In this document: one piece after another, positions 1 to 19,759 of the stretch | Layout: each line of letters starts with the position of its first letter | How positions within the stretch are numbered: the stretch's first letter is position 1 | DNA from: Rhodanobacter soli | GTDB taxonomy: Bacteria; Pseudomonadota; Gammaproteobacteria; Xanthomonadales; Rhodanobacteraceae | DNA: 64,000 nucleotides | Reading direction: 5' to 3' | NCBI RefSeq assembly: GCF_040548735.1 | Contig: NZ_JBEPSD010000001.1 | Span: 1,364,001-1,428,000, forward strand | Made by a program: the position numbers and the translations under genes | The notes under the pieces: generated by a model | What the model was told of the DNA's origin: nothing | What the model saw: the letters and a program-made list of their open reading frames with translations, nothing else | Database searches by the model: none

Positions 1-51
1 CATGGCGCGCGAGCAGTCGCCGTCCACGGCCGCGGTGGCCTGAACCTCGCC

Positions 52-651
52 GTGCCGACCTATCTCGCCCTCGGCGACTCGTACACCATCGGCGAGGCGG
101 TGGCCGCGCACGAGCGCTGGCCGGCCGTGCTGGTGCAGCGCCTGCGCCACGGCGGCATGCCGATCGACGAGCCGCGGATCGTTGCCGTCACCGGCTGGAC
201 CACCGACGAACTGGCGCAAGGCATGGATGCCGCGGCACTGATGCCGCCCTACGGCCTGGTGACGCTGCAGATCGGCGTGAACAACCAGTACCGCGGCCGC
301 CCGGCCGACGACTACCGCGAACAGTTCGCCGGCCTGCTGGATCGCGCGATCGTGCTGGCCGGCGGCCGTGCCGCGCGCGTGGTGGTGGCGTCGATCCCCG
401 ACTGGGGCGTCACCCGCTTCGCCCGCGAACAGGGCCGCGACCGCGCACGCATCGCCGCCGAGCTGGACGCCTACAACGCGCTGGCCCACGCTGAAACCGA
501 ACGCGCCGGCGCCCGCTTCGTCGACATCACCGGCACCTCGCGCCAGCACCCCGAGCTGCTCGCCGACGACGGCCTGCACCCTTCCGCGGCGCAGTACGCC
601 TTGTGGGTGGAAGCGATCGAACCGGCCGTGCGCGCGGCACTTCGCTCCTAG
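52..651 (+). CDS. SGNH/GDSL-family hydrolase
   Basis: Small esterase of the SGNH hydrolase superfamily, about 199 residues. Visible blocks are GDS at residues 8-10 (nucleophile Ser10), a Gly-Trp at 48-49, GVNN at 75-78 and the C-terminal DGLHP, giving the Asp173/His176 pair of the catalytic triad. No signal peptide, so it is probably cytoplasmic. The start is GTG. The frame stays open to the window edge, so a start outside the window cannot be excluded, but family members usually begin just before the LALGDSYT motif, as here. A different frame ends with TGA at 41-43 and may be the tail of an upstream gene. The substrate cannot be told from sequence. Confidence 0.85.
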   Translation: MPTYLALGDSYTIGEAVAAHERWPAVLVQRLRHGGMPIDEPRIVAVTGWTTDELAQGMDAAALMPPYGLVTLQIGVNNQYRGRPADDYREQFAGLLDRAIVLAGGRAARVVVASIPDWGVTRFAREQGRDRARIAAELDAYNALAHAETERAGARFVDITGTSRQHPELLADDGLHPSAAQYALWVEAIEPAVRAALRS

Positions 652-737
652 CCGCAACCGCGCTGCAACCTGTTCGCCATCGCACGGTGACGTGACGTCT
701 GCACACTGGCGCCCCGGGCAACCACCTGGGATCGGCC

Positions 738-1595
738 ATGACCAGCCTGCACTGCCGCAGCGCCTTCATCTCCGACGTGCATCTGGGCACGCCGGACTGC
801 AAGGCCGCCTACCTGCTCAACTTCCTGCGCCAGCTGCGCTGCGAAAAGCTCTATCTGGTGGGCGACATCGTCGACCTGGAGGCGCTGTCCCGGCGCCACT
901 GGTGGCATGCCGAACACAGCGCGGTGATCGCCGAGATACTGGAACTGGCGCGCCGTGGCGTCGACGTCGTCTACATCCCCGGCAACCACGACGCGCCCAT
1001 GCGCGGCCTGCACGGGCAGAACTTCGGCGGCGTGCGGATCGCACTGGATGCGGTGCACGTCGGCGCCGATGGTCGCCGCTACCGGGTCAGCCACGGCGAC
1101 GAGTTCGACCCCGAGCGGATCGGCCGCCGCTGGATGCAGCAGTTCGGCGAGGCGATGCATCGACTCATCTGCTGGGGCAATCGCCGGCTGCATGCAATGC
1201 GGCGACGGCTGCGGCTGCCGTATCTGCCGCTGTCGATCATCCTCAAGTCGCACGTCGGCAAGGCGCTGGCGTACATCCGCGCGTACGAACAACGCGTCGC
1301 CGCGGACGCGCGCGAACGCGGCTTCGACGGGCATATCTGCGGGCACATCCACTTCGGCCACGTGCGCGAGCTGGCCGGCGTGCTCTACCTCAACGACGGC
1401 GACTGGGTCGAGCATTGCACCGCGCTGGTCGAGGATCACACCGGTGCGATGGAACTGATCCACTGGAGCGAGCAGTCCACCGCGCTGGGTCGCGCCAGCC
1501 GCGAACTGGTCTGGCCCTCGCCCGCCGCGGTGCTGGCGCTGGCGCCGCTGGGCGCCCGCCGGCGCCACCTGGGCGAGCTGCACCGGGCCGCCTGA
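738..1595 (+). CDS. LpxH-type metallophosphoesterase (UDP-2,3-diacylglucosamine diphosphatase family)
   Basis: Calcineurin-like phosphoesterase of the COG2908 type, 285 residues. The metal ligands are all visible: DVH (Asp13, His15), GD (Asp43), GNHD (Asn83, His84), His119 in SHGDEFD, and GHIH (His203, His205). LpxH hydrolyses UDP-2,3-diacylglucosamine to lipid X in lipid A synthesis. This protein is about 45 residues longer than E. coli LpxH and carries a basic insert around residues 145-165, so a related phosphatase role (LpxH-like paralogue) is equally possible. It sits alone, 86 bp after the SGNH gene and 80 bp before the glutaredoxin gene. Confidence 0.8.
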   Translation: MTSLHCRSAFISDVHLGTPDCKAAYLLNFLRQLRCEKLYLVGDIVDLEALSRRHWWHAEHSAVIAEILELARRGVDVVYIPGNHDAPMRGLHGQNFGGVRIALDAVHVGADGRRYRVSHGDEFDPERIGRRWMQQFGEAMHRLICWGNRRLHAMRRRLRLPYLPLSIILKSHVGKALAYIRAYEQRVAADARERGFDGHICGHIHFGHVRELAGVLYLNDGDWVEHCTALVEDHTGAMELIHWSEQSTALGRASRELVWPSPAAVLALAPLGARRRHLGELHRAA

Positions 1596-1675
1596 GCGGG
1601 GGCAACCTTGAAGGCCGGCAAGTCCCCCGCATATCGGACGGCGTATCATTGAAGCCTTCTTTGCCGGAGTTCCCC

Positions 1676-2599
1676 ATGTCTCTCGACGCCGCCACCCGCG
1701 AACGTATCGAAACCCTGCTCAAGGACCACCGCGTGGTGCTGTTCATGAAAGGCAACCGCCAGCAGCCGATGTGCGGCTTCTCGGCCGCGGCCACCAACAC
1801 GCTCAATGAATTGCTGCCCGAGTACCACACGGTCAACGTGCTGGACGATCCGGAGATCCGCGAGGGCATCAAGGCCTACGGCGACTGGCCCACGATCCCG
1901 CAGCTGTACGTGGAAGGTGAACTGGTCGGCGGCGCCGACATCATCCGCCAGATGTACGGCAGCGGCGAACTGCACCAGCTGTTCGGCGTCGCCGCGCCGG
2001 ACCGGACCCCGCCGGAAATCACCATCACCGACGCCGCCGCCGAGGCGATTCGCCAAGGCACCGCAAATGCGCAAGGCGTGGCACTGCATCTGGAGATCGG
2101 TCCCGACCACAGCGCCGGCTTCCAGCTGGCGCCGGCCGGCGAGCACGACATCGTGGCCCATGCGAACGGCCTCGAAGTGCATTTCGACCCGGCCAGCGCA
2201 CAGCGCGCCAAGGGCATCGTGATCGACTGGGTCTCCACCGTGCAGGGCGAGGGCCTGAGCCTGAAATTCCCCGGCGCCACCGAGATCAAGCCGCTCAGCG
2301 TGCAGCAGCTGAAGCAGCGGCTGGCCGCCAACGACATCACCCTGATCGACGTGCGCCCCGCCGCCGGCCGCGCCCAGGCCGCACCGCTGGCGCAGGCGCG
2401 GGTGCTGGAAGAGGAAGGTTACGAGAGCCTGGCCAACCTGCCGAAGGACACCGCGCTGGCCTTCATCTGCCACCACGGCATGTCCAGCCGCGCCATGGCC
2501 GAACGCTTCGCCGCGCACGGCTTCAGCAACATCTACAACGTGGAAGGCGGCATGGATGCGTGGGCCAGCGAGGTGGATTCCAGCGTGCCTCGCTACTGA
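1676..2599 (+). CDS. Grx4-family monothiol glutaredoxin fused to A-type-like and rhodanese domains
   Basis: Three-domain protein of 307 residues. Residues 1-105 are a monothiol glutaredoxin with the CGFS active site at Cys33, the class that carries Fe-S clusters. Residues about 115-205 resemble an IscA/HesB A-type scaffold but contain no cysteine, so they cannot bind a cluster in the usual way. Residues about 210-307 are a rhodanese domain with Cys265 in the loop CHHGMSS. The combination suggests Fe-S trafficking or sulfur transfer in the cytoplasm. The start was set at the ATG that opens the glutaredoxin fold, preceded by CCGGAG; the frame is open about 1.3 kb further upstream, but that part is antisense-like shadow over the two preceding genes. 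Confidence 0.9.
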   Translation: MSLDAATRERIETLLKDHRVVLFMKGNRQQPMCGFSAAATNTLNELLPEYHTVNVLDDPEIREGIKAYGDWPTIPQLYVEGELVGGADIIRQMYGSGELHQLFGVAAPDRTPPEITITDAAAEAIRQGTANAQGVALHLEIGPDHSAGFQLAPAGEHDIVAHANGLEVHFDPASAQRAKGIVIDWVSTVQGEGLSLKFPGATEIKPLSVQQLKQRLAANDITLIDVRPAAGRAQAAPLAQARVLEEEGYESLANLPKDTALAFICHHGMSSRAMAERFAAHGFSNIYNVEGGMDAWASEVDSSVPRY

Positions 2600-2634
2600 T
2601 CCGAAAGGGCTTTCGTCCGGTACTCGACGAAGCA

Positions 2635-2664
2635 CGGAGAGCGCCCTTGGAAGGGCGCTCTCCG
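2635..2664. terminator. Bidirectional hairpin terminator between convergent genes
   Basis: Perfect inverted repeat with 14-nt arms (CGGAGAGCGCCCTT and its complement) and only GG between them, lying between the convergent glutaredoxin and hydroxylase genes. No strong T run follows on either strand, so efficiency is uncertain. Confidence 0.75.
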
Positions 2665-2692
2665 TTCCGCCGGATCATGCCTAGTGTCAGGC

Positions 2693-4012
2693 TCAACCCT
2701 TGGGGGTAAGTACTTCGCTCTCCCGGTTGAAATCGCCGATCGCCCCGACCAGATCATTCACGGCTGCCCGTTCGGCCTCGCTGAGATCCGGATTCCAGCT
2801 GTCGAGAATCAGCACTACCCGCGTTTCGCCACTGTTGTTCCAGGCCTCGTGCTCGAACGTGTCATCGAAGGTCACACAGCGTCCCTCCTGCCACGCATGG
2901 ATTTCTCCGCCAACGCGCAAGGCACAATCGGGCGGCACGATCAGCGGCAGGTGCGTGACCAGTCGGGTGTTGGTGACGCCACGGTGCGGCAGGATATGCG
3001 TGCCGGGCCGCAGCACCGAGTACAACGTTTCCGGTGAGTGTTCGCGCACGTACACGAGCGGCAGCGCGTCGAGCAGTGCGGCCGTCTGCGGACAGCGCGC
3101 GCAATGCGCGTCGTAGCGCTCGCCGTGGCGATGGAAGAAATACGCATCCCAGGCCGCCCGGGTACCGGAGGAGCGCACCAGGTCGGCCGCGTCCTGTGGC
3201 GAATCCGTCTGCAGAAACGGTTCGAGGTCCTGCGGCTGCGACAGCACGGCGCGCAGCTCCTCGCGAATCACGGCAGTGTTGGCCTCCAGTTCCGCCTGCC
3301 ACGGAAAACGCTCGCGCGGGTAATACGGCTGGCTCGGCACGCTCGGGAAATAGAGGAACTTCGGTCGCTGCCGCGAATCGGGCGGGGTCATCGCCTTTTC
3401 GCCGAGATAAATGGACAGACAATCCTCCACGCGTGCAAGTTCGGAGCGACCGTAACGCTGCCGCAGGGGTTCGAGCACTTGATCGAAAAGCTGCCGGCGC
3501 CCGGCATCGATGAAACCAATCGCATGCCTGACCGCATCGCGCAGACCGGGTGCTGTGTTCGCATCGCCAAGCCAGCGGCCTTGTGCCTGGGCAGCGTTTA
3601 CCGCGCCGAAATAAGCCACCAGTGCACGGTGCGTTTCCCCCAGCTTTTCAAGCGCCATACCCAGGCGAAGACGCGCCACAAACATGTGCGGCGCCAGCGC
3701 CGTTCCACGTTGCAGGCTGCCCACTGCGCCGGGCAGATCCCCGGCGGCCATCTGCGCGGCACCCAACTGGTGCAGCGTATTGGCATCATCCGGATGCGCC
3801 TGATCAGCCGCGAGCAGCATGGCCACGGCACGAATGGCATCCCCGCGAATCAGATGGCGGCTGGCGACGAACTGCAGCGCCTCGACGTCACCGGGAATCA
3901 TCTCCAGCAGCCGCGCAAAGTGCTGCTCGGCCAGTACCGGATCACCACGCTGCAGTCCGTTGTGCGCCATTTCGCGCAAGGCCACAGCACCCTCATGAAG
4001 CTCGCTGTTCAT
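2693..4012 (-). CDS. TPR-fused aspartyl/asparaginyl beta-hydroxylase
   Basis: About 439 residues. The N-terminal half (residues about 10-190) consists of TPR-like helical pairs; the C-terminal part is an aspartyl/asparaginyl beta-hydroxylase fold, an Fe(II)/2-oxoglutarate dioxygenase. His343 in LPHRGVTNTRL and His388 in DDTFEHEAWN are the likely iron ligands, with a Gly where other dioxygenases have Asp, as in human AspH. Arg398 in GETRVVL would hold 2-oxoglutarate. No signal peptide or membrane segment, so it acts in the cytoplasm, unlike AspH or LpxO. The start is the ATG opening MNSELHEGA; an upstream in-frame start would overlap the divergent sulfotransferase gene. The target is unknown. 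It lies divergent from two TPR-sulfotransferase genes. Confidence 0.85.
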   Translation of the reverse strand: MNSELHEGAVALREMAHNGLQRGDPVLAEQHFARLLEMIPGDVEALQFVASRHLIRGDAIRAVAMLLAADQAHPDDANTLHQLGAAQMAAGDLPGAVGSLQRGTALAPHMFVARLRLGMALEKLGETHRALVAYFGAVNAAQAQGRWLGDANTAPGLRDAVRHAIGFIDAGRRQLFDQVLEPLRQRYGRSELARVEDCLSIYLGEKAMTPPDSRQRPKFLYFPSVPSQPYYPRERFPWQAELEANTAVIREELRAVLSQPQDLEPFLQTDSPQDAADLVRSSGTRAAWDAYFFHRHGERYDAHCARCPQTAALLDALPLVYVREHSPETLYSVLRPGTHILPHRGVTNTRLVTHLPLIVPPDCALRVGGEIHAWQEGRCVTFDDTFEHEAWNNSGETRVVLILDSWNPDLSEAERAAVNDLVGAIGDFNRESEVLTPKG

Positions 4013-4048
4013 CGTCTGATTACCGCCAAACGGGTTCTGTTCAGGAAG

Positions 4049-4074
4049 AAAAACGTCAGTCAGCCTCGCTGACG
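4049..4074 (-). terminator. Attenuator-like hairpin in the hydroxylase leader
   Basis: On the minus strand CGTCAG and CTGACG flank 9 nt and are followed directly by five T residues (plus-strand A run 4049-4053), 36 nt before the hydroxylase ATG. An alternative fold GTCAGC-GAG-GCTGAC overlaps it. The stem is short, so this is a candidate only. Confidence 0.4.
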
Positions 4075-4176
4075 GTGCGTACCAAGCATAATAATGAGGT
4101 TCGAGAGACAGCGCGCCCATTCCCTGTATTCGCAGGATGCCGCACCGCAGAAACCACGTCCTGATCAGAGACCTCG

Positions 4177-5754
4177 ATGAACCCACGTCTGCACGGGCTG
4201 AGCCCCGTCGTCATCCAACATGTATTGGCTGCGGGACAGGCGCTCGACGGTGGCCATCTGGACGAGGCCGATCGGCAACTGTCGCATGCATTGGCGGCGT
4301 ACCCGGACCATCCCGAAGTGCTGCGGCTGCTGGCAGGTATCCACAACTTGCGCGGCCAACACCTCGATGCCTTGCGCGTGATGCGCCGGGCGCTGGCGCA
4401 ACGCCCGCAGGATCCGCTCTATCACAACACCCTCGGATCGCTGCTGGGCGCAGCGGGCGACTACGAATTGGCGATCGATGCGTTGCGCGTTGCCTGCAAG
4501 CTCCAGCCAGGCCTGGCCATCGCCTGGTTCAACCTCGGCGTTATGCTGACCAAATCCGTGCGCAACGACGAAGCTGTGGAGGCGCTGCAACGGACCGTCT
4601 CGCTCGCACCCGACCATATCGCCGCGCGGGCGCTGCTCGCCGACATACTGCGCACGCGAGGGCAGCTCGAAGAAGCGGCCGCCGAATACCGCCAACTGAT
4701 CGCCCAGCACCCCGCGGCCGGGATCGCCTGGTGGGGACTGGCCGACCTCAGGACACAGCGCTTCACCGAAGAAGACATCAAGCGCATGCGCGCTGCGCTG
4801 CAGCTTCCCGCGACCAACGACAACGACCGCATCACGATCGGCTTTGCCCTGGCCAAGGCTCTCGATGATGCCGGCAACTACGCCGCTTCACTTGCCGCAC
4901 TGGAACAGGCCAATGCCATTGCGCGCCGCCGCCAGGACTGGAATGCCGAAGCGTTCTCCAGCAGCGTCGCGGCCATCACTGCTGCGTTCGATCCACCACC
5001 TGCCGGCGCGATGGAACCACTTGGCCGCGAGGCCATCTTCATCGTCAGCCTGCCGCGCGCGGGCTCTACCCTCGTCGAACAGATCCTGGCTTCGCATTCG
5101 TCGGTGGAAGGCGCCGGCGAATTGCCCGATCTGCCGCACGTGCTGGCCGAGGAATCGCGTCGCCGCGGCAAGCCGTTTCCGCAGTGGGTCGACCATATGC
5201 AACCGTCCGACTGGGAACGACTCGGCCGACGCTACCTGGAACGCACCGCGCACTGGCGACGCCGGCGTCCCATCTTCACCGACAAGCTGCCCAACAACTG
5301 GATCTACATCGGCGCCATCCGCGCCATGTTGCCGGCCGCTCATATCGTGGTCTGCCGGCGCGACCGGCTGGAAACGTGTTTCTCGTGCTACCGGCAACCA
5401 CTGGACAGCAGCAACGGTTACACGCGCAGCTTCGCCGACCTGGCCAGCTTCTGGCGCGATTTCGACCGCAGTGTGCAGCATTGGACCGCGCTGCATCCCG
5501 CTTCGGTGCACGAGCACCGCTACGAGGTGCTGCTGGCCGAGCCGGAAGCGCATATCCGTGAACTGCTGGATTTCTGCCGGCTGCCATTCGAGAACGCGTG
5601 TCTGCACTTCCACGAGAACCGGCGCGAGGTACGCTCACCCAGTGCCACCCAGGTGCACCAGCCGTTGCGCCGGGACACGGCACGCGCACATCTTTACGGA
5701 AATCTGCTCGACCCGCTCAGGAAGGCACTTGACCTGCCGTCGTGGCAGCCATGA
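4177..5754 (+). CDS. TPR-containing sulfotransferase (paralogue 1)
   Basis: 525 residues. Residues about 10-265 are TPR repeats; the rest is a Sulfotransfer domain that uses PAPS as sulfate donor. The 5'-phosphosulfate-binding loop is FIVSLPRAGST at residues 288-298. The 3'-phosphate-binding strand begins at Ile390 (IVVCRRDRLETCFSCYRQ). No signal peptide or membrane segment, so the acceptor must be cytoplasmic. The gene overlaps the next sulfotransferase by 4 nt (ATGA) and so is in one transcription unit with it. It is divergent from the hydroxylase, with 164 bp between the two start codons. The acceptor (protein, glycan or small molecule) is unknown; the TPR part is a plausible protein-binding surface. 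Confidence 0.88.
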   Translation: MNPRLHGLSPVVIQHVLAAGQALDGGHLDEADRQLSHALAAYPDHPEVLRLLAGIHNLRGQHLDALRVMRRALAQRPQDPLYHNTLGSLLGAAGDYELAIDALRVACKLQPGLAIAWFNLGVMLTKSVRNDEAVEALQRTVSLAPDHIAARALLADILRTRGQLEEAAAEYRQLIAQHPAAGIAWWGLADLRTQRFTEEDIKRMRAALQLPATNDNDRITIGFALAKALDDAGNYAASLAALEQANAIARRRQDWNAEAFSSSVAAITAAFDPPPAGAMEPLGREAIFIVSLPRAGSTLVEQILASHSSVEGAGELPDLPHVLAEESRRRGKPFPQWVDHMQPSDWERLGRRYLERTAHWRRRRPIFTDKLPNNWIYIGAIRAMLPAAHIVVCRRDRLETCFSCYRQPLDSSNGYTRSFADLASFWRDFDRSVQHWTALHPASVHEHRYEVLLAEPEAHIRELLDFCRLPFENACLHFHENRREVRSPSATQVHQPLRRDTARAHLYGNLLDPLRKALDLPSWQP

Positions 5755-7316
5755 CAGCATCGGCGACAAGCACGGCAATCCTCGTCGCGCTCGAGCAAGC
5801 GCCGGAGCAGGAGTGGCTCGAGCATGGTCGCGCGCTGGCCCTGCGCGCCGATCTGGCCGGCGCGCTGGCCGTTTTCTCGGCGGCGGCACGGCGCTATCCC
5901 GCATCGGGAGAAGTGCGCGTTGGTCTGGCCGGGCTGCATTGGCAAATGCAGCAGCAAACACAAGCCGAGGCGTTGCTGCGCGACTGGCTGGCGCAGCATC
6001 CCGCCCATGTCGCCGCCACGTTCCTGCTGGTCCGGCTGCTACGCGAGCAGGGCCGCATGCAGGCGGCGGCACAATCGATGCGACAGCTGTTCGAGCACGG
6101 CCCGCACGATACGGACACCGTGATCCAGGCGGTGGAGATGCTTGACGACTATGGCCGCCCGCAGGATGCCGCCGTGATTTGCGAAGCTGAGCTCGCTGCC
6201 GGCTCGACCGACCCGCGCATGCATGCCTACGCCGGCATGCTGGGCATCCAGCTGGGTGAATTCGAGCGCGTGCGCGAACGTTATGAGTTTGCGCTTGCCC
6301 ACAGTCCCGTGGCGGTCGAATGGAATATCCCGATCGGCTTGTCCGGCCTGCAACGCTATCAGGACTCCAGCCATCCGGACTTCGCGCTGTTTCGCGAGGT
6401 GCTGAATCGACCCGGGCTGAGCGACAAGACGCGCATCACCACATTGTTCGCCCTCGGCAAGGCGCATGACGACATCGCCGACTATGCCCAGGCGGCAAGC
6501 TATCTGCGCGAGGCCAACACGCTCGCACACGCCGCCGGTTCATGGTCGCGCAAACAGTGGAACCGCTCCGTCGAGGCACGCCTCGCAGCCAAGCCCTATC
6601 CGTTCACGTTGCCCGCACCCGCCGACTGGACGCCGATCTTCATCGTCGGCGTACCACGCTCCGGCACCACCTTGCTGGCCGAACTGATCGCACGTCACCC
6701 GCAGGTCCGCAACCGCGGCGAACTCGGCTGGCTCAAGGCGCTGGCGCAGCGGCTTTCGCTGACGACCGCCAGCCAGCAGGACCCCTACGAACAGGCCGCC
6801 GCCATTTACGCGGCGCAGTTGCGCCAGGACGATGGCGACGCGCACTGGTTCATCGACAAACAGCCGCTGAACCTGCTGCATGTCGACCTGATCATGGCAT
6901 TGTGGCCCAACGCGCGGATCATTCATTGCCAGCGCCACGCGCGCGACACGGCACTGTCGCTTTGGTCTCAGTCCTTTCATGACCAGGCCCACGACTATGC
7001 CTACGATTTCGGCGACATCAGCGCGCTGATACGGGGCTGCCGCCGCCTGGCCATGCACTGGAGCGCACGCTACCCGGAAGCATTTCGCACCGTCCATTAC
7101 GAAGACCTGGTGACAGCACCGGATGACATCGTGGCAGCGCTGATCGACTGGCTGGGACTGCCGGCCATGAGCCCTTCCGACCCGATGCAGAAGCCACACG
7201 GCATCAGTACCGCCAGTGCATGGCAGGCGCGCCAGCCGGTGCATACCCGCTCCGCCGGACGTTGGCGCGAATACGCAGCTTACCTGCCGGAACTACTGCG
7301 GGTTCCCTTGCCATAA
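5751..7316 (+). CDS. TPR-containing sulfotransferase (paralogue 2)
   Basis: 521 residues, TPR repeats at about 5-250 followed by a PAPS-dependent sulfotransferase domain. The phosphosulfate loop is FIVGVPRSGTT at 297-307 and the 3'-phosphate strand starts at Ile390 (IIHCQRHARDTALSLW). I chose the ATG that overlaps the stop codon of paralogue 1 (ATGA); a GTG 9 nt upstream is possible. It is clearly diverged from paralogue 1 outside the motifs, so the two may differ in acceptor. No export signal. It is convergent with the third paralogue. Confidence 0.87.
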   Translation: MTASATSTAILVALEQAPEQEWLEHGRALALRADLAGALAVFSAAARRYPASGEVRVGLAGLHWQMQQQTQAEALLRDWLAQHPAHVAATFLLVRLLREQGRMQAAAQSMRQLFEHGPHDTDTVIQAVEMLDDYGRPQDAAVICEAELAAGSTDPRMHAYAGMLGIQLGEFERVRERYEFALAHSPVAVEWNIPIGLSGLQRYQDSSHPDFALFREVLNRPGLSDKTRITTLFALGKAHDDIADYAQAASYLREANTLAHAAGSWSRKQWNRSVEARLAAKPYPFTLPAPADWTPIFIVGVPRSGTTLLAELIARHPQVRNRGELGWLKALAQRLSLTTASQQDPYEQAAAIYAAQLRQDDGDAHWFIDKQPLNLLHVDLIMALWPNARIIHCQRHARDTALSLWSQSFHDQAHDYAYDFGDISALIRGCRRLAMHWSARYPEAFRTVHYEDLVTAPDDIVAALIDWLGLPAMSPSDPMQKPHGISTASAWQARQPVHTRSAGRWREYAAYLPELLRVPLP

Positions 7317-7322
7317 CCCCCT

Positions 7323-7344
7323 GGCGGGGCAACTTTGCCACGCC
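7323..7344. terminator. Hairpin between convergent sulfotransferase genes
   Basis: Ten-base arms GGCGGGGCAA and TTGCCACGCC pair with one mismatch around a CT loop, in the 56-bp gap between convergent genes. No T run follows. Confidence 0.45.
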
Positions 7345-7372
7345 GCGCGGTTGTCCCGATCAGCGCTGCCGG

Positions 7373-9220
7373 CTAATTCGCAGGCGAGCTGCTGTACATC
7401 TCGGTGTCGTAGCCCCAATGCCGCAGCATGGGTTCGAGGATCGGCAGGACCGGCTCGAACTCGCTGCGGTACCGATGCCAGCGTCCCAGTCCTTTCCGGT
7501 TCACCGGCTCGATCACCTGCGAGTAGCTGGGCGTGCCGATATACGTCTTGCTGCGTGCATGCTGGTCGAAGCTCAGCATGGGAACGGCATCCTCCAGTTC
7601 CAGGAACTGTGCGATGCGCGCAGCCTGCTGCGGAAAGTCCAGCACGAGATCTTCGTAGCGCGACACCATCATGTCCGGCTGCAGAATGCTCACCTCTTCC
7701 AGCCAGCACGTCATGATCTCCACGTAGGCGTGCGCCAGCCGCGTGAGCGTATTGCAGGCTGCCGCCAGGCCGCTGGAGCGGAAATTCTGCATATAGCAGC
7801 TGAGAATCACGTCGCAGGGATGACGTAGCGCGAAGATGATCTTTGCCGCCGGAAACAGTCGATGGATCATCGGCAACCACTGCATGTTCAGTGGGTTCTT
7901 GTCGACCAGCTGTGCATCCCACCGCCGTGCTATGCGCTCGGCGACCATCGCGTGGTAGCGCTTGCGCAGTTCGTCACAATCGAACTGCCGCAGTACGCCG
8001 AAGTCGTCCAGGATGCGTGGATCGTGCTGGCGCAGCGTATCGGCCAGGTTATTGAAGAATGGATTCTCGTCCATCGACTGCAAACCCGGGTGCGCATCCA
8101 GCATCTGCTCGAGCAAGGTGGTGCCCGAACGCGGAAAACCCACCACAAAGACTGGCGAATCGTGCGCCTCGGGCGCGATCAGTTGCGGCCAGCGAGCATA
8201 CTGTTCGGCCGACACCCGCGGAGCATCCGTCGGCATGGCCGGCGCAGCAGGCGTGAAATGCTCCAGCGATTCGAACCGCCGCTCCCGCGCCTCCAGGCGA
8301 TGCGCCTCGCGCAAGGCGCCCATCGCCGCCGTGGTATCGCCCAGCTTGTCGTACACGGAAGCCAGCTGGAAATAATGGGCATAATCGTCGTCGCCCTGTG
8401 GCCCGCATAGCTCCAGCAGCTGCCTCGCACCGACCAGGTCCTTCCGGCGCAATGCCAGCGTGGCCAGCAGATGGTCCGCCTCATTGCGCATGGCGTCAGT
8501 CCAGTCCGCCGCCATGCGAACCATCGGCGACACCATCGCCTCCGCGTCCGCCAACCGATTGAACCGCTCATACACGCTGGCCAGCAGGAGCCGTGCTTTC
8601 GGGTGAGCAGGCCGGCGGGCAATCAGGTCCTCCAGCAGCTCAGCCGCTGCGGGCACATCGTTCCGCAGCGTCAGTACCTGCGCCAGCTCCAGTTGCAGCC
8701 CGTCGTCGTTCAGCGGCAACCAGTGGCGCCAGGGTTTGAGCAAGTCGCCGGCACCCCGGATATCCTGACTGAGGCAGCACGCCCTGGCGGCCTGAATACG
8801 TGCCTGTACCGACTCCTGATCCAGCGCAACGAGGTCAAGCAACACGTCACGTGCGGCCAGATAATCGTGTTGCTCGATCAGCAAAAGCCCCAACTGGCTC
8901 TTGGGCAGCGGATTGGTCGGGTCCAGCTGGATCGCCTTTGCATAGGCCGCCTGCGCCTCGTCGTGCGCGCCGGCATCCGCCAGCACGGTGGCGTAATTGT
9001 TCCAGTGCAGACTGCTCGCCGGGGCCAGCCGTGTCAGCTCGGCATAGATCGACCGGGCGGCGGCCAGCTGCTGTTGGGCATGCAGGCTCATGGCCAGCAG
9101 CAACAGCAGATCCTCATCCTGCGGGAATTCGGGCAATGCCTGCCGGCACAGTTGTTCTGCGCGAGCGGGGTGGCCGGCGTTTATCGCGGCGGCAATCTGG
9201 GAAACGGTATGGGCGTTCAT
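7373..9220 (-). CDS. TPR-containing sulfotransferase (paralogue 3)
   Basis: About 615 residues, the longest of the three. TPR repeats fill residues about 5-330. The sulfotransferase domain follows, with phosphosulfate loop FVVGFPRSGTT at 358-368 and a 3'-phosphate strand from residue 461 (IIFALRHPCDVILSCY). The C-terminal region has the GLGRWHRYR segment common in this family. The start is set at the ATG opening MNAHTVSQI. A GTG 30 nt upstream lies inside a terminator hairpin and is unlikely. The chosen ATG is preceded by TTTTTTGAGCTC with no Shine-Dalgarno sequence, so translation may be weak or leaderless. It lies downstream of the TonB receptor on the same strand, with the terminator between them. 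Confidence 0.85.
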   Translation of the reverse strand: MNAHTVSQIAAAINAGHPARAEQLCRQALPEFPQDEDLLLLLAMSLHAQQQLAAARSIYAELTRLAPASSLHWNNYATVLADAGAHDEAQAAYAKAIQLDPTNPLPKSQLGLLLIEQHDYLAARDVLLDLVALDQESVQARIQAARACCLSQDIRGAGDLLKPWRHWLPLNDDGLQLELAQVLTLRNDVPAAAELLEDLIARRPAHPKARLLLASVYERFNRLADAEAMVSPMVRMAADWTDAMRNEADHLLATLALRRKDLVGARQLLELCGPQGDDDYAHYFQLASVYDKLGDTTAAMGALREAHRLEARERRFESLEHFTPAAPAMPTDAPRVSAEQYARWPQLIAPEAHDSPVFVVGFPRSGTTLLEQMLDAHPGLQSMDENPFFNNLADTLRQHDPRILDDFGVLRQFDCDELRKRYHAMVAERIARRWDAQLVDKNPLNMQWLPMIHRLFPAAKIIFALRHPCDVILSCYMQNFRSSGLAAACNTLTRLAHAYVEIMTCWLEEVSILQPDMMVSRYEDLVLDFPQQAARIAQFLELEDAVPMLSFDQHARSKTYIGTPSYSQVIEPVNRKGLGRWHRYRSEFEPVLPILEPMLRHWGYDTEMYSSSPAN

Positions 9221-9226
9221 GAGCTC

Positions 9227-9258
9227 AAAAAAGGGCCGCGTAAACGTCACGCGGCCCT
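9227..9258 (-). terminator. Intrinsic terminator after the TonB receptor gene
   Basis: On the minus strand a perfect 9-bp GC-rich stem (AGGGCCGCG and its complement, 9-nt loop) is followed directly by six T residues. It ends the receptor transcript 24 nt after its stop codon and 6 nt before the ATG of the downstream sulfotransferase, so it also acts as a gate on that gene. Confidence 0.88.
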
Positions 9259-9282
9259 CAGGTTAGCGCTTGAGTCGATGAC

Positions 9283-12225
9283 TTAGAACTTGACCGTCAC
9301 GCGAGCGTAGTAGTAGCGGCCCATGAAGTCGAAGTCGCTCGGGTCGCTGTTGGCATTGAGCGTGTTGTTCGCGTACAGCATGGGCGGCTGCTTGTCGAAC
9401 ACATTGTTCACGCCAAAGTCCACGCGCGTGTTCAGCAGTGCGATGTTGTAGCCGACTGACACGTCGTTGTAGACCGTTGCGCCGTACTTGAGCACGCTAC
9501 CGTTCTCTCCGTTCGGCAACGTGTCCTGCAGCGTAAAAGCCGGGCCGCCATTCTGGAACCGGCCGATGTAGCGCATGCGCCACGAAGCATTCCAACCGCC
9601 CATCTGCCAATCCACAAACCCTTGCCCACGCCAGCGCGGAAACAGGCAGACACCTACGGCATCCGGGCAGGCGGAGGCCTGTGCGGAACCGAACGGCAGG
9701 AGATGACCGGCATCGTGGTACGTCACGTTACCTGCCACACCCGGTGCCGTCTGCTGGTTGAAGTACTTCAGGTAGGTGGCGTTGATGCCCATGCTGAACT
9801 GACCGAAGCTGAACTGCGGCAGCTTGTAGTTTGCCGACCAGTCGACGCCGCCGGTGCTCACGCTGCCCAAGTTGCCAAATGGCTCAACCGTGGACTGCAG
9901 CAACTGACCCTGATTGGCGCCAGGGTTGGGATTACGGTGAATGTACTGGCAATACTGGGTCGAACCGGCGGCACATAGGTTGAGCAGACTCTGCAGGCCC
10001 ACGTTGGTGATGGTGTCGTTCAGGTTCACATGCCAGAAGTCGATGCTGGTGGACAAGCCCGACACATACGACGGACTGTAGACCAAGCCAAGGTCGAAGG
10101 TCTTGCCATGTTCCGGCTTGACCGGGAAGCCGGCCACGCGAGCACCTTGTACAACCGTGCTCGCCTGGGTCTGCGTCGCCACGGCGACGTCCCGGAACGA
10201 GCCATCGGTGGGTACGAACTGACAGGCCTGGGCGAGTGGCGAACCGGCCGGCGCGCCGGTATAGCCGTCACACGGGTCACTGTGGATCAACGGCGCGTCG
10301 GAGCCCGCCGTGAAGAGCTCGGTGAGGGACGGCGCGCGGAACACCTCTTCCATCGAGCCACGCAGCAACAGATCGTCGATCGGCCGCCACTCCAACGCCA
10401 CCTTCATGTTGTTCGTGCTGCCGAAACCCTGGATTCTCGAATAACGGTCGCCGACGGTGACATTCAGCGACTTCACACCCGGCAAATCACTGAGGACCGG
10501 AATGAACGCTTCCGCGTAGACGTCCTTGGTGTTGTAACCGCCCTGCACCGCGGTAAGGCACTGGCTGCCCAAGACACAGGTACCTGTGGAATTATCGATC
10601 TGCAACTGCGGAGCGGGGGTGGCGTGCTGATAATCCTTGCGATATTCCGCACCGACCGCCAACTGTACGGCGCCTGCCGGCAGGCTGAACACCTCACCAT
10701 TGATACCGGCGTGCCAGGTCTTCTGGATCACGAAGTTATTGCTGGGGGCCGTCACATTGGCCGCCTTGATTGCCGCAACGGTACCAGGGGCGGTCATGTC
10801 GAACGGATTGAACTGGCAGGCCACCGTGCTGACACCGGGAGGGCACGACGCCGTACCGTCCGCGTTCAGCGTGGAGGCGCCTGTATACAGCGCCCCCTGA
10901 TCCACCAGGCCACCAGTGGTGGTGACAATGCTTTGATGACCGTAGTTGAAGCCGACGTCCCAGGTCCAGTTTTTGTCGAAGACCGTGAAGTCGCCCCTGA
11001 AACCGGTGTTGATCTGGGCGTCCGTCCTGCCAATCCCGGCCATGCGGGGGCCGTTCGAGGTCAGCCGCGAGCGGAACTGGTTGCCAGTGGTCCCGAACGG
11101 TACGCCGAACGGATTGAACGCATTATTCATGTCAAGCGACGCGCCCGTCGTATCGGTGCCATAGACCGCGGGCGCCAACTGGAAACTGGCCGACGTCTTC
11201 TGGTAGATCGCTTCCAGGTAGGCCGAGACGTGCTCACCGAGGTTGTACGAACCGTTGATGAACCCGCCGGTACGCTCCTGCGGGGTCATGATCAGGTTGA
11301 TCGCCGCGTAATTGTACTTGTCGGCGTTGCCATAGCAGTGGTAATTGGCCGTGGTGACCACCTGACTGTTGCCACCCGGGTTCAGCGACACGTTAGAACA
11401 GCCGAAGGCGCCCTGCATGCTGACCGGCAGTTGGATACGACCGACCGGCGTGGACGACGAACCGCCGATGACGACCTGGCTGCCAGAGAGGGTCAGCGCA
11501 TCCTTGGCGAAGCCGCGCGCGGCCGATAATACGCCGTCCTGCTTGTTGTAGTTGACGCCGGCCATGATGCTTCCCTTGTCGGACGTCTGTCCGAAAGTGA
11601 AGCTGTAGCCACTCTGATCACCGTCGCCACGGTCGGACTCGCCCACGTTGGCTGTGAACGTGGCGCCTTGGTAGTCCTTGCGCAGGATGAAGTTGACCAC
11701 GCCACCGATGGCGTCCGAACCGTAGGTTGCCGAAGCACCGTTGGGTAGCACTTCGATGCGCTCGATCGCGTCGACTGGAACGGCGTTCGGGTCCTTGCTC
11801 AGCAGGCGACGACCATCAACCAGGATCAACGTGCGACGCGAACCCAAGCCGCGCAGATTGATGCTCGACGAACCCGTACCGCCGCCGTTGTTGACCTGCG
11901 GATTGACAGCACCGCCGGTCATTGCCGGGAGCTGCTGCACCAGATCGCCCAGGGTTAACTTGCCGGTAGCCAGAATCGCCGCACGGTCAATGACAACCAC
12001 CGGATTGGACGTTTCCAGGTCGACGCGACGGATATTCGAGCCTGTGACCACGATGGTCTGCAGGGTAGTGGGTGCCTTCTGATTTGGTTGCTGATCCTGC
12101 GTGGACTGATCCTGCGCGCCCGAGTCCTGGGCAAGTGCAGTGCCCGATACGCCTACCGCGATGACCGCACCCAGCGAGAGTGCCAGGCGGACTGCCGAAG
12201 AAAGTTTCTTGACCCCAAGTTTCAT
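9283..12225 (-). CDS. TonB-dependent outer membrane receptor
   Basis: 980 residues. A signal peptide (basic MKLGVKK, hydrophobic core, cleavage near ALAQ) is followed by a Gln/Asp-rich linker, a TonB-box-like TIVVTG and the plug domain starting at GSNIRRVDLETSNP. The rest is the beta-barrel, ending in the usual aromatic residue (VTVKF). It imports a ligand across the outer membrane with TonB-ExbBD energy; the ligand is not predictable. SD GGGAGG stands 9 nt before the ATG. The gene has its own promoter far upstream and a terminator right after the stop. Its neighbours (three TPR-sulfotransferases and a TPR-hydroxylase) suggest that substrate handling or modification is tied to it. Confidence 0.92.
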   Translation of the reverse strand: MKLGVKKLSSAVRLALSLGAVIAVGVSGTALAQDSGAQDQSTQDQQPNQKAPTTLQTIVVTGSNIRRVDLETSNPVVVIDRAAILATGKLTLGDLVQQLPAMTGGAVNPQVNNGGGTGSSSINLRGLGSRRTLILVDGRRLLSKDPNAVPVDAIERIEVLPNGASATYGSDAIGGVVNFILRKDYQGATFTANVGESDRGDGDQSGYSFTFGQTSDKGSIMAGVNYNKQDGVLSAARGFAKDALTLSGSQVVIGGSSSTPVGRIQLPVSMQGAFGCSNVSLNPGGNSQVVTTANYHCYGNADKYNYAAINLIMTPQERTGGFINGSYNLGEHVSAYLEAIYQKTSASFQLAPAVYGTDTTGASLDMNNAFNPFGVPFGTTGNQFRSRLTSNGPRMAGIGRTDAQINTGFRGDFTVFDKNWTWDVGFNYGHQSIVTTTGGLVDQGALYTGASTLNADGTASCPPGVSTVACQFNPFDMTAPGTVAAIKAANVTAPSNNFVIQKTWHAGINGEVFSLPAGAVQLAVGAEYRKDYQHATPAPQLQIDNSTGTCVLGSQCLTAVQGGYNTKDVYAEAFIPVLSDLPGVKSLNVTVGDRYSRIQGFGSTNNMKVALEWRPIDDLLLRGSMEEVFRAPSLTELFTAGSDAPLIHSDPCDGYTGAPAGSPLAQACQFVPTDGSFRDVAVATQTQASTVVQGARVAGFPVKPEHGKTFDLGLVYSPSYVSGLSTSIDFWHVNLNDTITNVGLQSLLNLCAAGSTQYCQYIHRNPNPGANQGQLLQSTVEPFGNLGSVSTGGVDWSANYKLPQFSFGQFSMGINATYLKYFNQQTAPGVAGNVTYHDAGHLLPFGSAQASACPDAVGVCLFPRWRGQGFVDWQMGGWNASWRMRYIGRFQNGGPAFTLQDTLPNGENGSVLKYGATVYNDVSVGYNIALLNTRVDFGVNNVFDKQPPMLYANNTLNANSDPSDFDFMGRYYYARVTVKF

Positions 12226-12478
12226 GAAAACACCCTCCCGATTAATTTAAGACCCTCCGATTGGCTGCTGTCTTGGGCCTCGATAATTCCCGCCCCAAAA
12301 CCTCAACCTCGGCCCACCTCCCAAACCAATGAACCTCTGACTCACGGAACTCCCGGTCCGGGTCGATACCGCGACAGGCAACAACGCCGCGTTAACACGC
12401 GGCACACCTGCCCATCCATTAGTCCCACCCCGGTGCAGAGCCAATCCTGTCATTGCACTTGATGCAGCTCGGTCTGAT
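12226..12478 (-). other. Long untranslated leader of the TonB receptor
   Basis: About 250 nt between the predicted transcription start and the receptor ATG, without a convincing gene on either strand. On the minus strand it holds a 6-bp hairpin (GCCGCG arms, 12386-12403) and several G-rich blocks that could pair with the C-rich ones, plus the strong SD at the end. I recognise no known riboswitch class. The remaining 12513-12633, up to the end of the AMP nucleosidase gene, holds nothing I can name. Confidence 0.45.
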
Positions 12479-12483
12479 GCGTA

Positions 12484-12512
12484 CTTATTACGCTTCATTT
12501 ACATACTGTCAA
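12484..12512 (-). promoter_or_regulatory. Sigma-70 promoter for the TonB receptor
   Basis: On the minus strand a perfect -35 TTGACA (12507-12512), a 17-nt spacer and a -10 AATAAG (12484-12489). It is the most AT-rich spot of the region. No other gene lies downstream before the receptor. Confidence 0.7.
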
Positions 12513-12633
12513 CAAATTTTGTACTGTAGAAACTTACGTTTGGGTGTCGATTCAGGCTGCCCTGGCAGGCTGCTGCCTGGATTATCGGAGGGCAAACCGG
12601 CCTCCATCAGCCGACCCAGCCGCCGGATCGCGA

Positions 12634-13425
12634 CTATTCTGTGTCTCCGTCCGCCTCGAAACGCAGGTGTTTCACGCTGCGTCCGTTGCGGCGCACCAAT
12701 TTGAGGGCCTCGATGCCGATCTTGATGTGCGCCTCGACGAACTGCGAGGTGATGCTGCGGTCGCTCGCCTCGGTTTTCACCCCTTCCGGGATCATCGGCT
12801 GGTCGGACACCAGCAGCAGGGCGCCGCAGGGGATCCGGTTGGCGAAGCCGGCGGCGAAGATGGTCGCCGTCTCCATGTCCACCGCCATGCAGCGGGTGCG
12901 CCGCAGATAATCCTTGAACGTGTCGTCGTGTTCCCACACGCGGCGGTTGGTGGTGTACACCGTGCCGGTCCAGTAGTCGTGGCCGAGGTCGCGGATCATG
13001 GTGGAGACCGCGCGCTGCAGCTGGAACGCCGGCAGCGCCGGCACCTCCGGCGGCAGATAGTCGTTGCTGGTGCCTTCGCCCCGGATCGCGGCAATCGGCA
13101 GCACCAGGTCGCCGAGCTGGTTCTTCTTCTTGACCCCGCCGCACTTGCCCAGGAACAACGCGGCGCGTGGCTCGATCGCGCTGAGCAGGTCCATCACGGT
13201 GGCGGCGTTCGGGCTGCCCATGCCGAAGTTGATCAGGGTGATGCCGTCGGCGGTGGCATTCGGCATCGGCCGGTCGCGGCCCTGCACTTCCACCCCGTGC
13301 CACTGCGCGAACAATTCCACGTAGTGACCGAAGTTGGTCAGGAGGATGTGTTCGCCGAATTGTTCGAGCGGCGTGCCGGTATAGCGCGGCAGCCAGTTGG
13401 AGACGATTTCCTGCTTGTTCTTCAT
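12634..13425 (-). CDS. amn: AMP nucleosidase, short form
   Basis: 263 residues of the PNP/UDP phosphorylase superfamily. AMP nucleosidase splits AMP into adenine and ribose 5-phosphate in purine turnover. Family landmarks are the opening MKNKQEIVSNWLPRYTG, the glycine-rich LFLGKCGGVKKKNQ and the nucleoside-binding VDMETATIFAAG. It corresponds to the catalytic part only; E. coli Amn is about 484 residues with an N-terminal regulatory domain missing here. The frame is open about 70 codons further upstream, but the chosen ATG matches the family N-terminus. It is divergent from the DegV gene; the 191-bp gap holds the putative promoters of both, which I cannot place exactly. Confidence 0.85.
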   Translation of the reverse strand: MKNKQEIVSNWLPRYTGTPLEQFGEHILLTNFGHYVELFAQWHGVEVQGRDRPMPNATADGITLINFGMGSPNAATVMDLLSAIEPRAALFLGKCGGVKKKNQLGDLVLPIAAIRGEGTSNDYLPPEVPALPAFQLQRAVSTMIRDLGHDYWTGTVYTTNRRVWEHDDTFKDYLRRTRCMAVDMETATIFAAGFANRIPCGALLLVSDQPMIPEGVKTEASDRSITSQFVEAHIKIGIEALKLVRRNGRSVKHLRFEADGDTE

Positions 13426-13616
13426 TGCGAAGCGATATCCGATTGCGTTACCGGCGACGCCACGCCGGCGAGATGCCAGATGAGGTTGCGCCATCTTAGG
13501 TGGCTGCCCCTCCACCCGCCAGCTTCCCGCCTCGCCGTGCGGCCACCCGGCAAACACCGCCACCACGGCCCCCCATGCTATGTTTCGGCTGCCATTCATG
13601 ATCGGGGGATCAGGTG

Positions 13617-14561
13617 ATGCGGATGGGTCTGGCAATCGATGCGGCCTGCGATCTTTCGCAGGCGTTCCTGCAGAAGCACGATATTGCGGTGATGCCGATC
13701 ACCGTGCGGGTGAACAGCGAAGTCTTCATGGACGACCGCAAACCGGCCGAGATCCAGCGCTTCATCGATCGTCGCCTGGGCAGCCGCAGCCATTCGGCGG
13801 AAACCGAACCCTGCCCGGTGGAAGAGGTGCAGAAGCTGTTCCTGGAGAAGCTGGTGCTGGAGCAGGACTGCGTGTTCTGCCTGACCATCACCGCCACCCG
13901 CAGCCCGATCAACGAACACGTCAACAAGGCCAGCTTCGGCATCCTGAAGAATTATCGCCAGGTGCGCGAGCAGGCCGGCGTGCCGGGTCCGTTCATGATG
14001 CGTGTGATCGACACGCGCAACATCTTCGCCGGAGCCGCGCCGGTGATCTACGAGGCGGCCCGGCTGATCGCGGCCGACGAGCCGCCGGCCACGATCCGCG
14101 AACGGCTTACCCATCTCGCGAACCACACCTACGGCTACATGCTGCCGCGCGACCTGTACTACCTGCGCGCCCGCGCCAAGAAAAAGAACGACCGCAGCGT
14201 CGGCCTGGTCAGCGCGATGCTGGGCTCGGCGCTGGACATCAAGCCGATCCTGCGCTGCTTCCGCGGCGAGACCGGCCCGGTCGGCAAGGTGCGCGGCTTC
14301 GAGCAGGGCGCCGAAGCGTTGTTCGGCTACGCCGCGCAACGGGTGCGCGCCGGGCTGCTGGTACCGCTGGTGTGCGCCAGCTACGGCGGCGACCTCGCCG
14401 TGCTGTCGCATCTGCCCGGCTATGCCGAATTGCGCCAGGCCTGCGAGGAATGCGGCGTCGAGCTGATGGAGGCGCCGATGAGCATCACCGGCATGGTCAA
14501 CGTGGGCGAAGGCGCGGTCACGATCGGCTTCGCCGCCGAGGAACATGTCGCCGAGTTCTGA
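13617..14561 (+). CDS. DegV family protein
   Basis: About 314 residues with the DegV fold, which binds a single fatty acid; the related FakB proteins present fatty acids to a kinase. Typical features are the N-terminal AIDAACDLSQAFL (strand plus Ser/Asp-rich loop), the TITATRSPINEHV loop in the middle and a C-terminal glycine-rich strand. No FakA-type kinase is seen in this window. A GGGGGA stretch stands 7 nt before the chosen ATG; a GTG directly upstream is the alternative. It is followed after 13 nt by the DUF4124 gene and may share a transcript with it. Confidence 0.82.
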   Translation: MRMGLAIDAACDLSQAFLQKHDIAVMPITVRVNSEVFMDDRKPAEIQRFIDRRLGSRSHSAETEPCPVEEVQKLFLEKLVLEQDCVFCLTITATRSPINEHVNKASFGILKNYRQVREQAGVPGPFMMRVIDTRNIFAGAAPVIYEAARLIAADEPPATIRERLTHLANHTYGYMLPRDLYYLRARAKKKNDRSVGLVSAMLGSALDIKPILRCFRGETGPVGKVRGFEQGAEALFGYAAQRVRAGLLVPLVCASYGGDLAVLSHLPGYAELRQACEECGVELMEAPMSITGMVNVGEGAVTIGFAAEEHVAEF

Positions 14562-14574
14562 GGATGGCCGCCGC

Positions 14575-15210
14575 ATGCCGCACCCGAGCGCCCTGCTGCT
14601 CTTGCTTGCCGTGACCGGCACACCGGCCGTCGCCGGCACGGTATACAAGTGCAGCGGCGCGGATGGCCGAGTGATCTATCAGGACACGCCGTGCGCGAAG
14701 ACACAGCGGCAGCAGACCCTGCAGTTGCCGGACGACACGACCGCGCCGCCGCCGACCAGCGTAGTCACCAGGCCCGACCGCCCGCCGCCCGTGGCGGCGC
14801 CCGCCCCGCCATCCACGCCAGGCGTGCCGCTGGTCCAGCTGTACCAGTGCAGGCACGCCGTCGACGGCAGCCTCTACGTCAGCCGCAACGGCAATCCGCC
14901 ACCGTTCCGCGCACCGCTGGGCATGCTCGGCGCGCTGTCGACGCCGCTGGGCGAGGTCTACGGATCACCGAACCACGCCGGCATCTCCGCGCCGGAGGCG
15001 AACCGCGGCCGGGTCAGTGCCGGGCTGGTCGCCAACAACTACGTATGGGTGCAGGACCGGTGCCGGCCGATGAGCGTGCCGGAGATCTGCAGCGAGTTGC
15101 GCGACGAGCAGGAACAGAACGCGCGCAAGCTGCAGCGCGCGTTCAAGAGCGACCGGCCGCCGCTGCAACGCCGCGACGACGAGCTGCAGGCGCAGTTGAC
15201 CCACTGCTGA
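14575..15210 (+). CDS. DUF4124-containing exported protein
   Basis: 211 residues. A signal peptide (MPHPSALLLLLAVTGTPAVA) precedes a DUF4124 segment with GTVYKCSGADGRVIYQDTPC. A Pro/Ala/Thr-rich linker follows at about residues 55-85, then a second cysteine-containing domain without a recognisable family and a charged C-terminus. Function unknown; such proteins are common in Xanthomonadales envelopes. The start is the ATG with GAGG 11 nt upstream; an in-frame ATG 30 nt earlier lies inside the degV end. It converges with the SDR gene, 6 bp apart. Confidence 0.8.
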   Translation: MPHPSALLLLLAVTGTPAVAGTVYKCSGADGRVIYQDTPCAKTQRQQTLQLPDDTTAPPPTSVVTRPDRPPPVAAPAPPSTPGVPLVQLYQCRHAVDGSLYVSRNGNPPPFRAPLGMLGALSTPLGEVYGSPNHAGISAPEANRGRVSAGLVANNYVWVQDRCRPMSVPEICSELRDEQEQNARKLQRAFKSDRPPLQRRDDELQAQLTHC

Positions 15211-15216
15211 GGCCGC

Positions 15217-15999: not shown

Positions 16000-16110
16000 G
16001 GGCGCAGCTTAAAACGTCGTTCCGGCGGCGCCTAGTGACGCGCCGCGGATCCTTGCCTGCGAACGTGCATGGCGGGACACTCGGCACTTCGACCACGCGC
16101 GAGAACCGCC

Positions 16111-18231: not shown

Positions 18232-18267
18232 GTGGATATCCGGAATCGTCGGGTCAAGCGTAGCCGG

Positions 18268-19653: not shown

Positions 19654-19759
19654 GGGCACAGCAGACTCCAGGGCCGCACATTCTACCTGAGCCATTCGTC
19701 ACGACCGCCGGTCCACCGTCCTGTGCGAAGATTCCCCGCTGCACCGAACGGGAACCTCG

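Follow-up and report, generated by a model that had tools for sequence, protein, structure and literature searches.

TPR-linked putative modifying enzymes encoded with a TonB-dependent receptor in Rhodanobacter soli, and their possible action on that receptor

Human AspH requires its TPR domain to hydroxylate protein substrates and requires those substrates to be closed by a disulfide. The histidines of its iron site are His679 and His725, and its substrate factor X presents a ten-residue cysteine ring that contains Asp and Tyr (all as given in PMC6817910). Among enzymes that sulfate protein tyrosine, a bacterial example, RaxST of Xanthomonas, is described in PMC6637879; the eukaryotic TPST1/2 have solved structures. 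Here we describe a locus of Rhodanobacter soli that brings relatives of such enzymes together beside a TonB-dependent receptor (TBDR). It lies in a stretch of 64,000 nucleotides, which we call the window and whose numbering we use for its features. The enzymes are of known kinds with a potentially surprising function, and their pairing with receptors is stronger and wider than a first-pass annotation, made from this stretch alone, could know.

Layout of the locus and predicted chemistry of its enzymes

The first-pass annotation had recognized five genes, namely a TPR-linked hydroxylase, three TPR-linked sulfotransferases and a receptor, and Pfam confirms all of them. The hydroxylase gene, HYD, occupies 2693–4012 on the minus strand and encodes about 439 amino acids; its ORF reaches 4186, and 4012, the methionine used by most aligned orthologues, is probably its start. 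Over 2693–4186(−) Pfam finds TPRs and an aspartyl/asparaginyl beta-hydroxylase domain of the 2OG-Fe type (Asp_Arg_Hydrox, PF05118; 9.9e-48). Divergent from HYD run two genes for TPR-fused PAPS sulfotransferases, ST1 (PF13469) at 4177–5754(+), with 525 amino acids, and ST2 at 5751–7316(+), with 521 amino acids and a second possible start, a GTG, at 5742; the two overlap by 4 bp. ST3, at 7373–9250(−), encodes up to 625 amino acids that join an OGT-like TPR superhelix to a TPST-like sulfotransferase. In all three, Sulfotransfer_3 and TPRs are found, with values of 6.3e-36 for ORF 4177–5754(+), 1.2e-35 for 5742–7316(+) and 1.8e-34 for 7373–9250(−). The receptor gene, at 9283–12225(−), encodes 980 amino acids with a signal-like N-terminus, a plug (PF07715, 1.7e-22) and a TonB barrel (PF00593, 2.6e-27). 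The set thus divides into two units: HYD is divergent from ST1-ST2, and TBDR and ST3 are co-directional. ST3 lies on the same strand 32 bp downstream of TBDR, and the two are likely to form one operon.

Spacing between the five genes runs from −4 to 164 bp, which gives no room for a linked precursor gene. The 408-bp intergenic region upstream of TBDR-ST3 (12226–12633, minus strand), a likely promoter, holds no clearly conserved small ORF; its tblastx matches were weak, fell in several frames and were best with one relative (L014). Hence the small linked precursor gene that the first-pass annotation had proposed to look for was seen neither within the set nor in this upstream gap, and a RiPP-like precursor was rejected because neither place offers a clear candidate ORF. 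No type I exporter was recognized among the flanking genes scanned, which make up a minority of the flanks. A regulatory RNA was likewise rejected, since an Rfam scan of positions 1–16000 returned no family above its gathering score.

HYD shares with human AspH the order of its parts, N-terminal TPRs and then a 2OG oxygenase, and a two-histidine iron site. Both histidines are kept in an HxG...H setting, the alignment with human ASPH spans both, and they align with the iron-site region of the human enzyme, which is also the best natural-enzyme PDB match of HYD (1.7e-29, phmmer). From this likeness we predict that HYD hydroxylates Asp or Asn in a protein. It differs from human AspH in being bacterial, receptor-linked and without a visible membrane anchor or signal. 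Hydropathy analysis of the N-termini of HYD and ST1–ST3 (HYD read from upstream of 4012, ST3 from 9214) revealed no stretch as hydrophobic as that of the receptor, and so agrees with the earlier statement that the enzymes lack an export signal. A disulfide-closed substrate, of the kind that human AspH requires, is unlikely in a cytoplasm.

ST2 and ST3 retain the PRSGTT P-loop and DK.P.N, and in ST1 the P-loop reads PRAGST; together with the two histidines of HYD, these residues agree with the claim that the catalytic motifs are intact. ST3 is the one that we compared with solved sulfotransferases. The nearest solved relatives of its catalytic domain are TPSTs (2e-15 to 7e-12), with which it has in common the P-loop, a Glu (E395) that aligns with the TPST GEET and a C-terminal motif, S..QVI.P.N...L..W. 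Its AlphaFold2 model (613 residues, mean pLDDT 88.2) matches the TPR proteins OGT and SPINDLY first, with a tick TPST at rank 48. OGT and SPINDLY likewise join a TPR superhelix to a transferase domain, but that domain and its chemistry are not those of ST3. ST3 may transfer sulfate to protein tyrosine. PAPS supply is likely because the genome encodes APS kinase (two matches, E < 1e-58). RaxST is compared with ST3 here by its description. ST3 differs from TPST and RaxST in its long fused TPR arm, in the lack of an export signal and in that the receptor of the window has no acidic tyrosine; unlike in raxX-raxSTAB, no RaxX-like small precursor was seen beside the sulfotransferases. The TPST-like domain of ST3, its OGT-like TPR arm and the TPR requirement of AspH therefore argue for polypeptide substrates.

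Recurrence of the receptor–enzyme pairing

The closest relatives of HYD, at about 75% identity, are found in Rhodanobacter and Dyella. We gathered 51 loci with HYD relatives and counted neighbourhoods in 24 xanthomonad ones (L014–L037), setting aside 27 mostly distant ones (L038–L064); L039 entered the alignment and the tree and L038 the tree, both outside the neighbourhood counts. All five genes occur together in 12 of the 24 (L014, L015, L019, L021, L023–L025, L027, L029, L033, L034 and, rearranged, L037). On the receptor side, most five-gene relatives have PNP or DegV in common; on the HYD side, several have glutaredoxin and metallophosphoesterase genes, which are replaced in L015, L019 and L021 among others. 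A receptor lies within the stretch examined at 19 of the 24 loci, a count to be read with the fact that the stretches of L017, L018 and L028 end inside ST3 and that of L016 starts at a contig end. A second arrangement, with HYD, TBDR and an ST3-type gene and without ST1-ST2, is found at L022, L026, L030 and, in the R. soli genome itself, L065. In two Pseudoxanthomonas loci (L035 and L036) HYD is accompanied by a TBDR-ST pair, a Lysobacter locus (L032) has TBDR-HYD without a sulfotransferase, and a Dokdonella locus (L031) has HYD without a receptor across 21 kb.

Three of these loci, from Rhodanobacter and Dyella, contain within their HYD/ST clusters a non-TPR protein that fuses an AspH-like 2OG oxygenase to a sulfotransferase (L017:3185–5044, L018:3100–4950 and L028:3051–4934). 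By eye its oxygenase half has an HxD...H pattern, which sets it apart from the subfamily of HYD. Among 274 genomes of the class, 7 contain relatives of the fusion, a few of which align over one half only. Because both activities are fused, they may act as consecutive steps on one substrate, and the fusion lends support to the earlier proposal that one locus performs both oxidation and sulfation. As a separate observation, in L035, the one locus scanned in this way, genes for a TPR-2OG-FeII_Oxy_5 protein and a TPR-GT41 (OGT-like) protein (16833–20213) adjoin TBDR-ST-HYD, and a small 2OG oxygenase is present too; four kinds of TPR-fused modifying enzyme thus lie in one place.

Comparison of distance matrices indicates how closely the genes diverge together. 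Over 14 window-type loci the correlation was highest for TBDR and ST3 (r 0.97), followed by HYD and ST1 (0.90); the ST2 row of L020 is a non-orthologue (27%) that spoils the ST2 correlations of this set. Without L037 and L020, TBDR-ST3 reached 0.98, pairs within HYD/ST1/ST2 reached 0.89–0.94, and pairs between the two units 0.81–0.88. In L037, TBDR and ST3 look as if they had been replaced together, with identities of 50% and 40% against 55–67% for HYD, ST1 and ST2. The signal extends to 32 hand-chosen TBDR-ST pairs that include paralogues (Mantel r = 0.38, p = 2e-4) and to the 26 that remain without close orthologues (r = 0.20, p = 0.006). In 19 of the 32, the partner of the nearest sulfotransferase was among the three nearest receptors (chance about 0.10 each). 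Co-inheritance of adjacent genes could yield the same signal.

The R. soli genome holds ten sulfotransferase genes at seven loci and 40 plug domains. A co-directional receptor neighbours five of the seven loci (the window, L065, L067, L068 and L070; not L066 or L071): L065 is a second HYD-TBDR-ST cassette, with a receptor 45% identical to that of the window, and L067, L068 and L070 add three further TBDR-ST pairs. At a limit of 5 kb, five of the seven have a plug nearby, against 0.72 expected under random placement (p = 2.3e-4). This result depends on the distance chosen, with 1/7 at 3 kb (p 0.36), 4/7 at 4 kb (p 0.0014) and 5/7 at 6 kb (p 5e-4).

Other loci of the same genome offered observations of their own. 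L066 carries two divergent TPR-sulfotransferases without an adjoining receptor (7820–11249), one of which has a degenerate P-loop, PHAGVGL, lacks the DK lysine and is perhaps a pseudo-enzyme. Genes of the PF04820 tryptophan-halogenase family directly adjoin two other receptors (L084:9573–11156 and L095:1655–3163), and a gene for a PKHD-type 2OG hydroxylase directly follows yet another (L074:8701–11708).

Contrary to the first-pass annotation, which had taken both fusions to be rare, TPR-sulfotransferases were matched in 70 of the 150 genomes sampled from the phylum and are therefore common, and TPR-AspH proteins were matched in 32 of 398 genomes (E ≤ 1e-40). For the sulfotransferases we examined 40 loci in 28 genomes, picked by family before their context was seen, out of 69 that matched besides R. 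soli, so that the remainder may include further TBDR-rich genomes. Single matches in G147, G090, G067 and G024 stand outside these counts, and G031:C22, with a receptor 1149 bp from the sulfotransferase, was counted apart as L107. By number of plugs the genomes divided into 11 TBDR-rich (17–55) and 17 TBDR-poor (0–5) ones. In the TBDR-rich genomes, 16 of 18 TPR-sulfotransferase loci, among the matches listed, lay within 2 kb of a receptor, against 1.41 expected (P ~2e-16 by a Poisson estimate that takes loci as independent, with the 2-kb limit set after the distances had been seen). By contrast, none of the 22 loci in TBDR-poor genomes has a receptor nearby, and their TPR-sulfotransferases therefore probably have another role. 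Unrelated contexts without association, which the first-pass annotation had named as telling against its proposal, are thus not what TBDR-rich bacteria present. The search profile may favour receptor-linked relatives because it was built from the R. soli sulfotransferases, several of which are themselves receptor-linked. The pairs of this survey comprise 11 oriented TBDR>ST, three ST>TBDR and three opposite, and the receptors that partner the sulfotransferases belong to at least three groups, each group with its own sulfotransferase. In the TBDR-poor genomes, some of the TPR-sulfotransferases stand in tandem (L163–L184).

The hydroxylase survey covered 40 TPR-AspH loci of the phylum (43 matches minus two in the R. 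soli genome and G107). A receptor is present at 16 of them and a sulfotransferase at ten, with L106 a weak eleventh; 24 have no receptor nearby, and the tree of HYD relatives contains subclades without receptors. The receptors at TPR-AspH loci number 19, of which 17 have the AspH domain no more than 3.5 kb away. Fourteen of the 19 fall by single linkage into the group of the window receptor and come from the class of the window and at least one other, in keeping with the co-occurrence with this receptor clade that the first-pass annotation had proposed to survey. Outside the group are the receptors of L114, L115, L118 and L121 and one of L122. Receptor and sulfotransferase are oriented TBDR>ST at three of these loci and opposite at three. 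Two loci of Acaryochloris, a cyanobacterium, show three tandem AspH-domain matches (L041:10001–12172 and L042:5293–7458).

The receptor as a candidate substrate

The AlphaFold2 model of the receptor (mean pLDDT 71.6) has a fold like those of PfeA, FepA and BtuB and is too generic to identify a ligand by structure, an approach that we rejected. We examined the receptor for residues that the enzymes might modify. By the rule used, the window receptor contains no tyrosine in an acidic context. Such tyrosines were not significantly enriched in sulfotransferase-linked over unlinked receptors (p 0.09; the 57 linked ones include near-orthologues from many genomes, and the 34 unlinked ones come from the R. 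soli genome only), and we rejected their enrichment as support for receptor sulfation.

A second feature is a cysteine loop, CAAGSTQYC, at residues 751–759 (window 9949–9975, minus strand), which has nine residues and no Asp or Asn. In the model it sits in a long loop between strands 724–741 and 780–801, which would be extracellular. Its cysteine pair is present throughout the receptor clade. We compared the loop after collapsing the receptors to 44 clusters at 55% identity, 18 HYD-linked and 26 unlinked, part of the unlinked loci being judged on 1.5-kb flanks. Cysteine loops of ten residues occur, for example, in the receptors of L065 and L110. A ten-residue loop whose second cysteine is preceded by Phe or Tyr was found in 10/18 linked and 2/26 unlinked clusters (Fisher p 0.0012), a post hoc result and the best of seven variants. 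Other definitions gave 11/18 against 5/26 for an aromatic loop of up to ten residues (p 0.0096), 11/18 against 7/26 for a length of ten alone (p 0.03), 13/18 against 11/26 for a length of up to ten alone (p 0.07), 15/18 against 16/26 for any Asp or Asn in the loop (p 0.18) and 12/18 against 12/26 for the aromatic alone (p 0.23). The strict AspH substrate motif is C-x-[DN]-x4-[FY]-x-C. It occurs in one of the 18 linked clusters and none of the 26 unlinked ones, and the window receptor lacks it, a further difference from the human AspH system. A tree-based test of the ten-residue aromatic loop gave a median p of 0.25; its nine independent pairs, of which about 3.4 spoke for the association and 0.1 against it, were too few for significance. 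The association of the ten-residue aromatic loop with HYD linkage, and its resemblance to the substrate ring of AspH, are thus at most suggestive.

The neighbours of TBDR-ST pairs add no obvious other candidate. Among 56 of 96 neighbours, taken from crude gene calls at 17 of 19 loci, none of the 25 families listed was seen more than three times. The most frequent were BCCT transporters (three, near the pairs of L145–L161 and L067) and MFS transporters (three). Because no precursor ORF is evident and no family recurs more widely among these neighbours, the receptor is the only conserved non-enzyme, and the simplest inference is that it serves as the substrate.

We therefore favour, tentatively and at somewhat less than even confidence, a locus of cytoplasmic, TPR-guided protein-modifying enzymes that are dedicated to the co-encoded receptor and most likely act on it. 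The cassette would comprise two co-evolving units, TBDR-ST3 and HYD/ST1-ST2, in which the TPR arm of each enzyme recognizes a polypeptide, as in human AspH and OGT. In the cytoplasm, ST3 would sulfate a hydroxyl side chain with PAPS as the donor, and HYD would hydroxylate a residue of the Asp/Asn type; at loci with both activities, sulfate may be added to a hydroxyl that the hydroxylation has first introduced. The receptor would be modified before its export, and the sulfate and hydroxyl groups would end up on the plug or the outer loops, where they may tune the binding of ligands or partners.

Alternative readings and implications

It is also conceivable, though rather unlikely, that the target of the enzymes is a peptide or small molecule, such as a siderophore-like or signalling compound, which is exported and, once modified, taken back or sensed by the receptor. 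Several findings point this way: the receptor model is closest to the siderophore receptors PfeA and FepA (a weak guide, with BtuB and others close behind), CurM, a sulfotransferase of a polyketide pathway, is detectably similar to ST3 (2.6e-6), and BCCT transporters are among the neighbours of the pairs. Yet no precursor gene was seen, none of the families listed recurs in more than three of the 56 neighbours, several receptor groups have each their own sulfotransferase, and the TPR arms are of a protein-binding type. The same findings divide the inference of the first-pass annotation, that a cytoplasmic protein, peptide or metabolite is modified and travels with the receptor: the enzymes do look like protein modifiers, but a precursor to be exported or imported did not appear.

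A general surface component, such as LPS, an exopolysaccharide or an ornithine lipid, is an unlikely target, with the receptor nearby merely through a shared cell-surface programme. The TPR-sulfotransferases of TBDR-poor genomes, which have no receptor neighbour, would fit this view, as would the PF05118 domain that HYD has in common with the lipid hydroxylases OlsC and LpxO. However, HYD scores 76.5 and 119.7 with the LpxO and OlsC models (NCBIfam equivalogs), far under their cut-offs of 500 and 450, and an LpxO-like gene is encoded elsewhere in the genome (L069:8016–8975, 1e-123, yet itself under the curated cut-off); for both reasons we rejected HYD as an LpxO/OlsC-type lipid 2-hydroxylase. 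To our knowledge, moreover, OlsC and LpxO have no TPRs, whereas HYD has a TPR arm. The one-to-one co-divergence of TBDR and ST3 also speaks against a general surface target.

Quite improbable is the modification of another protein of receptor function, such as a TonB/ExbBD partner, an anti-sigma factor or a chaperone. TPR arms would accept such a protein, and a common partner could explain why several receptor groups have sulfotransferase partners; but a common substrate needs no separate sulfotransferase for each receptor, and no such partner was recognized among the neighbours annotated, which are a part of all neighbours. That the genes are co-localized without direct functional meaning, through ancestry or horizontal islands, is very improbable: adjacent genes do co-inherit, and HYD subclades without a receptor exist, but the same pairing appears across arrangements, receptor groups and classes, at 16 of 18 loci against 1.4 expected.

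Modification of the co-encoded receptor, the reading that we prefer, can be extended, more doubtfully, to a broader proposition. Many Gram-negative bacteria may tailor individual receptors before export, by TPR-guided, TPST-like sulfation and, in one receptor group, by AspH-type hydroxylation as well, possibly with hydroxylation and then sulfation on the same residue. Our literature search, for which subscription papers and preprints were mostly outside reach, found no paper on TPR-ST/TBDR pairs, and within that literature bacterial outer-membrane receptors have not been described as sulfated. Such tailoring, if true, would be a bacterial counterpart of the modification of receptors in the ER and Golgi. 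Part of the large TPR-sulfotransferase family would thereby gain a function, it would become clear why certain receptors come with modifying enzymes of their own, and there would be consequences for nutrient specificity and for the binding of phages or bacteriocins. The pairing recurs in distant bacteria, and it hints at a little-known chemical tailoring of surface receptors.
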